Part shown: positions 13,027-37,464 of the stretch, piece after piece
Layout of the letters: the number at the start of each line of letters is the position of its first letter
Numbering within the stretch: the stretch's first letter is position 1
NCBI GenBank assembly: GCA_007693785.1
Contig: RECY01000024.1
Location: 124,001-188,000 of the forward strand
DNA length: 64,000 nucleotides
Reading direction: 5' to 3'
Source: Phycisphaerales bacterium
GTDB lineage: Bacteria > Planctomycetota > Phycisphaerae > Phycisphaerales > UBA1924
Notes under the pieces: generated by a model
What the model was told of the DNA's origin: nothing
Seen by the model: the letters and a program-made list of their open reading frames with translations, nothing else
The model's database searches: none
Made by a program: the position numbers and the translations under genes

Positions 13027-13094
13027 GATGGCAGTCTCCCCGCTGACCGGACCCGCGGCAAGGGGATCACGCCGAGGGCGTTGAGGCCCGGACC

Positions 13095-13129
13095 TTGACA
13101 CCTCAAAAATGTGACTATATAGTCACATT
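13095..13129 (+). promoter_or_regulatory. Consensus sigma-70 promoter with embedded 22-bp palindromic operator
   Basis: TTGACA (13095-13100) and TATAGT (13118-13123) are separated by exactly 17 nt. A perfect 22-bp palindrome at 13108-13129, half-site AATGTGACTAT, covers the spacer end and the whole -10. Binding there would block RNA polymerase, so repression by the downstream ArsR-type protein is the natural reading (inference). Confidence 0.8.
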
Positions 13130-13171
13130 ATAAAGCTCACGCCAGGATGACGCGGGCGAGACGGGCGGCGC

Positions 13172-13969
13172 GTGGACGAGGCGATGGACGAGGTCTGGAA
13201 AGCGCTGAGCGACGCGACGCGTCGGGCGATCGTCGACCGTCTGCGTGACGGGCCCCGCACCACTGGTGAGCTCGCGAGCGGATTCCAGTCTCTCACGCGC
13301 TACGCGGTGATGAAGCACCTCGGCGTGCTTGAGTCGGCGGGGCTGGTCATCGCGGAGCGACGCGGGCGAGAGCGGTGGAACCACCTGAACGCCGTCCCGC
13401 TGCGCCGGGTCTACGAGCGGTGGGTCAGCAGGCACGAGGACCGATGGGCCGGCTCGTTGCTCCGGCTCAAGGACGCGATGGAAACTACAGGACAAGGAGA
13501 ACGGGCGATGGGTGTCAAGCTTCTGGATCAGCCGGCGCGGGTGGCGTGGGCGCAGTGCGAGGTCGTGATCAACGCGCCCCGCGAGGCGGTCTACCGCGCG
13601 TGGTTCGAGCGCACGCAGGACTGGTTCTTTGACAGCCCCGAAGGGGTCGCGACCAAGCCCTTCCTCTGCGAGGAGCGGATGGGCGGGCGGTTCTATCAGC
13701 AACTCCCGGACGGCGGCTTCAACGTGCTCGGCGAGATCACGATGCTCAAGCCCGGGCACAAGATCCGCCTCCGCGGGGATTGCACGATGCCAGAGGCCGT
13801 GCTGATGAACATGACCATCAGCTTCGAAGACGACGGGCAGGGCACGCGTGTCCGCGTGGACCACCGGATGGTGGGAGAATTCGGCGACGAACTGCCCGCG
13901 GGCTTTGAAGAGGGCTGGATGGACGGGCTGACCAAGCTCAAGGCGTTGCTCGAATCCGGCAACGCATAG
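13172..13969 (+). CDS. ArsR-type winged-helix regulator fused to an SRPBCC (AHSA1-like) domain
   Basis: A 265-residue fusion. Residues 5-90 form an ArsR-type winged helix (V-W-K-A-L-S-D-A-T-R-R-A-I-V, then A-V-M-K-H-L-G-V-L-E-S-A-G-L-V). No conserved metal-binding cysteine pair is visible. Residues 120-260 match SRPBCC/AHSA1 proteins (V-I-N-A-P-R-E-A-V-Y-R-A-W; G-G-R-F; F-E-E-G-W-M-D-G-L), a ligand-binding fold. In many bacteria these are two adjacent genes; here one chain could sense a hydrophobic ligand and release DNA directly (inference). The start is uncertain: GTG at 13172 or ATG at 13184. The palindromic promoter lies about 50 bp upstream. Confidence 0.85.
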   Translation: MDEAMDEVWKALSDATRRAIVDRLRDGPRTTGELASGFQSLTRYAVMKHLGVLESAGLVIAERRGRERWNHLNAVPLRRVYERWVSRHEDRWAGSLLRLKDAMETTGQGERAMGVKLLDQPARVAWAQCEVVINAPREAVYRAWFERTQDWFFDSPEGVATKPFLCEERMGGRFYQQLPDGGFNVLGEITMLKPGHKIRLRGDCTMPEAVLMNMTISFEDDGQGTRVRVDHRMVGEFGDELPAGFEEGWMDGLTKLKALLESGNA

Positions 13970-36399: not shown

Positions 36400-37464
36400 A
36401 TGAGTTGGCAGGATCGTCCATCCGGTGGCGGGCTGGGTCGCGGGGGCGGCGAGGGCGGTCGGTTTCGCGCCGCCGTGCGTCGCGTTTTTGGGGATGGAGA
36501 AAACCCGCTGTCGTGGGCGGTGCCGCTGTACTCGGCGTGGGGGATCCGGGTCAAGGCGCACTTGTTTTTCATCGTGTACGTGATCGCGATGTTGCTGTGG
36601 TCGATCCCGCAGAGCGGGATCGGGCCGGGGTACATGGCGCTCGGGATGCTGGCGTTGTTCGGAACGGTGCTGCTGCACGAGTACGGGCACTGCTTCGCGT
36701 GCCGGTGGGTCGGCGGCGAGGCGGACGAGGTCCTGATGTGGCCTTTGGGCGGGCTGGCGACGGTGCTGCCGCCGGAGGACTGGAAGAGTCACCTGTGGAC
36801 GGTGCTGGGCGGTCCGGCTGTGAACGCGGTGCTGTGGCCGGTGTTCGCGGTGCTTGTGCTCGCGATGACGGGCGTGACGTGGTCGGCGGTGCTGTTTAAC
36901 CCGTTCGCGCCCGGGCTGGGGCTCGGGGCGGCTCAGACGGCGGCCACAACGCCGGTCTGGCTGGTGACCGGCGCGTGGTGGTTGATGTACATCAACCTGA
37001 TCCTGCTCGCGTTCAACATGCTCGTGCCGATGTACCCGATGGACGCGGGGCGCACGATCCAGGCGCTGCTCTGGCGCTCGATGGGGCAGCGCCGGGCGAC
37101 GGAGATCACGGTCACGATCGGGCTGGTCGCGGCCGGCGTGATGGCGGTCGCGGGGATTGTCTTCTCCGAAACGCTGCTGCTCGCGCTGGCGATCTTCGGC
37201 GGGCTCACCTGCTGGCTGGAGCGGCGACGCCTGCGGTTTGAAGGCGGGGATGACTTCGGGGCGGTCTACGCGGGCGGCGCTGCGTCGATTGACGAGGACG
37301 AGCCTCCGGGCCCGAGCAAGCGGGAGCTGCGCGAGCAGGAGCGGGTGGCGGCCGAGCGTGAGGAGGTCGATCGCATCCTCGCCAAGATCTCGCAGCAGGG
37401 CATGGCGAGCCTGACGCCAAAGGAACGCAAAGCGCTCGAAAAGGCGTCGGCGAAAAAAGGCTGA
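36400..37464 (+). CDS. Site-2 protease family (M50) membrane metalloprotease
   Basis: A 354-residue intramembrane zinc protease. The zinc motif H-E-Y-G-H (His93, Glu94, His97) lies in a membrane helix, and the third ligand is Asp215 in M-Y-P-M-D-A-G-R. About six hydrophobic segments are visible. The C-terminal tail (K-R-E-L-R-E-Q-E-R ... V-D-R-I-L-A-K-I-S-Q-Q-G-M-A-S-L-T-P-K-E-R) is a charged helical module also found at the ends of some rhomboid proteases. No PDZ domain is present. No Shine-Dalgarno is evident before the ATG. Confidence 0.9.
   Translation: MSWQDRPSGGGLGRGGGEGGRFRAAVRRVFGDGENPLSWAVPLYSAWGIRVKAHLFFIVYVIAMLLWSIPQSGIGPGYMALGMLALFGTVLLHEYGHCFACRWVGGEADEVLMWPLGGLATVLPPEDWKSHLWTVLGGPAVNAVLWPVFAVLVLAMTGVTWSAVLFNPFAPGLGLGAAQTAATTPVWLVTGAWWLMYINLILLAFNMLVPMYPMDAGRTIQALLWRSMGQRRATEITVTIGLVAAGVMAVAGIVFSETLLLALAIFGGLTCWLERRRLRFEGGDDFGAVYAGGAASIDEDEPPGPSKRELREQERVAAEREEVDRILAKISQQGMASLTPKERKALEKASAKKG

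Follow-up and report, generated by a model that had tools for sequence, protein, structure and literature searches.

What does a bacterium gain from a gene that fuses an ArsR-type winged helix to an AHSA1/SRPBCC domain, behind a promoter whose -10 element lies within a perfect palindrome? We asked this of one locus in a 64,000-nt stretch of DNA from a Phycisphaerales bacterium (hereafter, the window). In our reading, to which we assign a probability of about two in three, the gene is an autorepressed ArsR-COG3832 (ArsR-SRPBCC) module in which one fused gene would yield a sensor-repressor and probably a free SRPBCC protein as well. This kind of module is already known (ArsR-COG3832), and the form in the window is a fused, dual-start variant of it. 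The features needed to begin with are:

13095-13123, plus strand: sigma-70-type promoter TTGACA-N17-TATAGT (TTGACA at 13095-13100, 17-bp spacer, TATAGT at 13118-13123)
13108-13129, no strand assigned: putative operator, a 22-bp palindrome with half-site TGTGAC and a 6-bp centre, lying over the -10 element
13172-13969, plus strand: gene fusing an ArsR-type winged helix to an AHSA1/SRPBCC domain, 265 codons (Pfam HTH_20 and AHSA1)

The presence of both domains in one gene, as given in the initial annotation, is borne out by Pfam: HTH_20 covers residues 12-59 (E 1.1e-11), with HTH_5 also above its cut-off, and AHSA1 (PF08327) covers residues 134-261 (E 4.5e-14). The gene is likely to start at GTG 13172, with ATG 13184 as the alternative, because its nearest relative (L088 in our numbering of homologous loci) aligns from residue 1 and has Met there. 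AlphaFold2 predicts two confident domains (mean pLDDT 88.1) and a linker, residues 107-117, with pLDDT below 50; given that linker and a pTM of 0.55, the model does not fix the placement of the two domains relative to one another. Foldseek returned SRPBCC-type PDB matches (best 3otl, E 6.7e-09; also human Aha1, 7dme, and TcmN ARO/CYC, 2rez) and, on the ArsR side, a match to the ArsR protein 3f6o. Set beside the ArsR-COG3832 module, the gene thus has the ArsR-type winged helix lacking a metal site (HTH_20 and HTH_5, with zero cysteine in residues 1-105) and the partner AHSA1/SRPBCC domain (PF08327 plus the PDB fold matches), with one open reading frame in the window in place of two separate genes. 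The curated model for SdpR-family autorepressors (NF033789) scored 51.7 bits, below its cut-off of 100.

The product had been described as a single chain. The fused frame is present, but that description is probably incomplete, because a conserved internal start with a Shine-Dalgarno (SD) sequence at the domain joint predicts a free SRPBCC protein too:

13494-13499, plus strand: internal Shine-Dalgarno AAGGAG, 8 nt before the internal ATG at 13508
13508-13969, plus strand: nested in-frame reading frame starting at ATG 13508-13510, predicted free SRPBCC protein of 153 residues from M113

The alternative that survives best is a purely single-chain, one-component sensor in which the joint Met and SD are remnants of a two-gene operon and are being lost. 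We regard it as unlikely, largely because of how the joint behaves across the family. M113 falls inside the low-confidence linker of the AlphaFold2 model, and in the alignment the linker stretch preceding it shows 23% identity among fused family members, yet the start codon has been retained. We picked the joint start of each fused gene by alignment, allowing shifts of -2 to +5 residues, and found an ATG or GTG in 36 of 38 genes, 27 of them in the exact alignment column; the two in which no start lies within the allowed shifts (L122 and L019) are outside the SD counts. Where the joint codon is not ATG (L101, L105 and L109), it is GTG, still a start codon, which again speaks against decay.

The SD sequences tell a similar story. 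At the proper distance from the 36 joint starts, a match to AAGGAGGT of at least 4 bases is found in 33 and of at least 5 bases in 23 (only 3 bases match in L102, L104 and L015), versus 12.2% and 2.4% for 580 other in-frame start codons, and the SD four-mers peak 6-9 nt before the joint start. In 300 synonymous-codon shuffles encoding the same peptides, the means were 20.6 (maximum 27) for at least 4 bases and 11.2 (maximum 18) for at least 5. Since 33 and 23 exceed all 300 shuffles, the SD bases appear to be kept beyond amino-acid need, as would not be expected of a remnant. The internal SD is also stronger than the best SD of the first start in 21 of 26 family genes, although the first starts themselves are uncertain.

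With the prediction fixed beforehand, we then turned to seven further fused genes with an N-terminus, leaving out of the count L214 (a copy of L019) and L211 (no N-terminal match). Five of the seven have a start at the joint with a 6-base SD; none was found in the other two, L209 and L210, which are related. The joint windows of the seven hold 15 ATG/GTG codons in total; elsewhere in these genes plus L214, an SD of at least 4 bases accompanies 11 of 71 ATG/GTG codons. In L214, whose linker and operator match those of L019, an ATG with AGGAG lies farther along. Finally, the joint start with its SD is common to fused genes of Myxococcota, Chloroflexota, Acidobacteriota and an alphaproteobacterium, a distribution that also argues against a feature on its way out. 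From these observations, we infer that the SRPBCC domain is probably also made alone from the fused gene.

What favours the remnant explanation is the existence of split homologues, with overlapping or adjacent genes and in most cases an SD before the SRPBCC start. On a tree, 6 changes between the fused and split forms are required, with starred branches forcing 5 of these; some of the fusions may therefore be recent. This tree was made without L093, whose SRPBCC part was mispicked, and L157, which aligned poorly; L126 and L128, having no adjacent SRPBCC gene by our rule, are outside the fused/split set, yet among the operator loci discussed below.

In the usual toxin-antitoxin logic, the antitoxin is unstable and separate, whereas the fused gene comes without a separate antitoxin. 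This is one reason why we consider it very improbable that the gene is a toxin-antitoxin module with COG3832 as toxin and ArsR as antitoxin, the role predicted for the two-gene version. ArsR-COG3832 does appear among the TA-like pairs of Makarova et al. 2009 (PMC2701414), but for a COG3832-ArsR pair of S. maltophilia the COG3832 gene is reported, in the text available, to be toxic neither in E. coli nor in S. maltophilia (PMC7650669).

How would such a gene be controlled? The promoter had been called the best sigma-70-like one in the window, and by our scan rule (whole window, both strands, spacers 16-18, -35 matching at least 4/6, total at least 10/12) this holds, because it is the only site returned, with a score of 11/12. 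The palindrome at 13108-13129, AATGTGACTATATAGTCACATT, is perfect over 22 bp and covers TATAGT at 13118-13123, as had been noticed. No other perfect palindrome in the window is as long; the next, GGTTGATGTACATCAACC at 36980-36997, has 18 bp. Length cannot serve as proof of an operator, because a palindrome of at least 22 bp is present in 11 of 100 first-order Markov simulated windows. At up to 3 mismatches, the 22-mer occurs once in the window (0 expected) and once in the organism's own genome (3.06 Mb, 45 contigs, 95% complete), in which no further site was found; a search of the same contigs for the half-site AATGTGACTAT found it solely as the palindrome's two arms.

We read the palindrome as a putative operator because of comparison. 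We selected 47 homologue loci by protein similarity (L126 and L128 by their HTH part only) and scored the DNA upstream of them. Of these loci, 37 are from the same family of genomes as the window, and 10 from elsewhere (3 Chloroflexi, 3 Acidobacteria including a Thermoanaerobaculia bin, and one each from Myxococcales, Armatimonadetes, Alphaproteobacteria and another planctomycete). TGTGAC-N6-GTCACA is found upstream with at least 10 of 12 letters in 44 loci, at least 11 in 39, and all 12 in 19, compared with means of 2.0 (maximum 11), 0.25 (maximum 4) and 0 for 40 permuted half-sites in the same loci. Many of these loci are close kin, so that they do not represent 47 independent events, and in three (L101, L017 and L018) no site of at least 10/12 lies upstream. 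Together with the helix covariation described below, this comparison supports the earlier proposal that the palindrome is the operator of the gene's own protein, acting over the -10, and we consider the autorepressor reading well supported at the sequence level. In four loci (L013, L014, L015 and L206), an ATG lies in or directly at the operator's right arm (GTCACATATG), a sign that messages in Chloroflexota may have little or no leader.

The target set appears to be small. The exact motif occurs in 21 of 163 genomes of the window's family, with 15 of these sites no more than 1.5 kb from a homologue and 6 elsewhere, and the reversed-pattern control in 5 of 163; with so few sites elsewhere, there is no sign of a wider regulon among these genomes. 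The initial annotation had named as targets the gene itself and perhaps the divergent YdjY lipoprotein gene. On this survey the gene's own transcript is the sole supported target. The YdjY gene is not supported: tblastn (E 1e-3) found no YdjY relative in the other loci up to L197, with flanks of about 1.5 kb, and the best minus-strand promoter-like site in 13027-13200 scores 7/12.

If the protein reads this palindrome, its recognition helix should vary together with the operator letters:

13295-13321, plus strand: recognition helix TRYAVMKHL, residues 42-50, in which K48 is predicted to read operator base 6

For this comparison, each ArsR-type gene was paired with its best upstream palindrome, which had to be nearly symmetrical and to carry G2, T3 and A5 in each arm; letters 4 and 6 were left free. 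The count covers 122 loci in which both helix and palindrome could be read, roughly half belonging to the set L022-L087, whose members are close relatives; 13 loci without a palindrome by this rule and 6 without a parsed helix are outside the count. All 59 loci with Lys at residue 48 (VMKHL) carry C as base 6 of each arm, whereas with Gln, Met or Leu at that residue base 6 is T, on both arms in 59 loci and with one arm off in 3. Helices of the xRT type have C at base 4 in 9 of 9 loci. Arg at residue 48 goes with G at base 6 in one locus, a pairing that does not generalise because two related further genes with Arg have a T/C site. All seven of the further genes have a palindrome by the rule, and C occupies base 6 of each arm in all five that have Lys. 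In a 75-row tree, with L022-L087 thinned to about every fifth locus, K48 and C6 change 4 times each and agree in every row; counting only independent switches on starred branches leaves 3 pairs (sign test p 0.25). These pairings suggest that K48 may contact operator base 6.

Among the 44 operator loci, 22 share the promoter arrangement of the window, with TTG 17 bp ahead of the TATAGT column. In another 12 the TTG is displaced upstream by five bases and in 5 by four, and there it faces letters resembling TAC[C/T]AT in the left half. Judged by the -35 hexamer alone, the second register is better in 12 of the 13 loci with T as operator letter 4 (one tie), and among the 31 with G the first register is better in 19 and the second in 7 (five ties). 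This covariation of -35 position with letter 4 (Fisher p 3.7e-5, kinship uncorrected) is the pattern due from a site that would be read by both polymerase and repressor.

CRP sites are spaced TGTGA-N6-TCACA, and the arms of the palindrome, TGTGA and TCACA, do look CRP-like. That the site belongs to another regulator of, for example, the CRP/FNR type and not to the gene's own product nevertheless strikes us as hardly credible, given that the arms are 8 bp apart rather than 6, that the motif stands beside ArsR-SRPBCC genes and is otherwise at control level in the 163 family genomes, and that its letters shift with the gene's own recognition helix. A metal-sensing ArsR/SmtB repressor is the least likely of all: the NCBIfam metalloregulator model (NF033788, HTH_metalloreg) scores 53.7 bits, just below its curated cut-off of 55, but the ArsR half has no cysteine, the flanking genes encode a YdjY-domain protein and an FtsX-type permease and no known metal transporters, and COG3832-linked ArsR proteins are described, in the accessible text, as being without the metal motif (PMC2701414).

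The operator geometry serves three architectures: fused genes like that of the window, two-gene operons whose frames adjoin or overlap (L117-L120, L124 and L125), and divergent pairs (L022-L087, from Sphingopyxis, Mesorhizobium and relatives and one Acidimicrobiales bin). All 66 divergent loci have the centre of the palindrome 27 bp ahead of the aligned ArsR-type start, and a long divergent ORF lies upstream that in 63 of the 66 resembles the AHSA1 ORF of L030 (those of L030 and L036 are AHSA1 by Pfam); downstream of the separate ArsR gene, 56 of the 66 have no long ORF.

In some relatives the operator heads a longer set of genes. The operator is likewise distant in L120, L121, L122, L126 and L128, which are not among the 15 loci whose operator-to-gene interval we inspected. 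In 14 family loci the operator lies about 300-1040 bp upstream, and in 12 of these we read a DinB-type gene in between (L092, L094, L095, L100, L102, L104-L107, L109, L111 and L115), two of which were scanned and matched DinB_2 (E 7.4e-17 and 1.1e-17); none was seen in L096, and no such ORF is listed in L103. In L094, L095 and L115, all among the 14, the interval holds an SRPBCC-like gene as well. The one in L115 proved to be AHSA1 (E 2.3e-10); the one in L095 gave no Pfam family but a tblastn match to the window protein at 29% (L135). An operator at the head of DinB-family and further AHSA1 genes would fit a small-molecule stress module. The window's own genome carries a second, unlinked ArsR gene beside SRPBCC-like and DinB_2 genes (L007, contig C21:3500-5502); its helix is QPTVSKHL, the TGTGAC operator was not found there, and by eye another AT-rich inverted repeat lies upstream.

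We propose the following mechanism. The winged helix, presumably as a dimer, would bind the 22-bp palindrome over the -10 and block RNA polymerase, so that the gene would repress itself, and little else. A compound, probably hydrophobic, may bind in the Bet v 1-like pocket of the SRPBCC domain and loosen the repressor. The message would be translated from two starts: the first would give the 265-residue sensor-repressor, and the second, with its own SD at the joint, the 153-residue SRPBCC domain alone, a step for which sequence conservation provides strong support. The free domain, in excess over the repressor, could then bind or inactivate the same compound.

On balance, it seems probable to us that this extends to the fused ArsR-SRPBCC genes of several phyla. 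They would be dual-product genes, in which a ribosome-binding site at the joint yields free SRPBCC protein, likely in excess, beside the sensor-repressor, thus combining ligand sensing and scavenging in one autoregulated frame. Because the internal start is already present, one mutation could convert the fused to the split form, and the helix-operator pairs would amount to a readable recognition code for this branch of ArsR proteins. An operator common to several phyla, combined with such a code, would give the targets of ArsR-COG3832 modules from sequence alone. The conserved internal start suggests a route from operon to fused gene with the separate protein retained, and gene calls taken as single-chain fusions may conceal a second product.

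ArsR-COG3832 modules are widespread and are carried in lists of possible toxin-antitoxin pairs; Makarova, Wolf and Koonin (2009; PMC2701414) listed them as TA-like modules and, in the text available, gave antibiotic resistance as their most plausible function. Those two-gene modules resemble the window's gene in having the same two domains, no metal site and the form of a small autonomous module, and differ in that the latter is one fused frame with a conserved internal start. Several domain fusions are described among the systems of that paper, in whose accessible text we found neither an ArsR-COG3832 fusion by name nor an operator or internal start for these modules. A survey of Bet v 1 proteins mentions AHSA1 domains among ArsR family members (PMC2577659), the same domain combination as in the window protein; in the parts consulted, the mention comes with no description of regulation or of a second product. 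The literature searched, mostly outside subscription journals, contained no report of an operator of, or an internal start in, fused ArsR-SRPBCC proteins and gave no ligand for ArsR-COG3832 modules.

Two systems come closest in their control regions. The divergent pairs L022-L087 have the same palindrome geometry, placed between the regulator and the AHSA1-like ORF, but are not fused; their half-site is TGTTAT or one letter off where scored, and their helix is mostly DRCTVM[Q/M/L]HL. Rv2034 of Mycobacterium tuberculosis represses its own gene and forms dimers in vitro, according to the accessible text; footprinting placed it on the palindrome CCGTAAGT-N4-ACTTACGG, and it shares an operon with Rv2035, which has an SRPBCC-like Polyketide_cyc2 domain (PMC3338718). 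Unlike the window's gene, these are separate genes, the half-site has other letters, and action on dosR and phoP has been reported. What they share is an ArsR-type autorepressor acting at a palindrome in its own promoter and a linked SRPBCC-like partner, and when written as CGTAAG-N6-CTTACG, the Rv2034 site fits, by our reading, the xGTxAx-N6 scaffold of the window's relatives.
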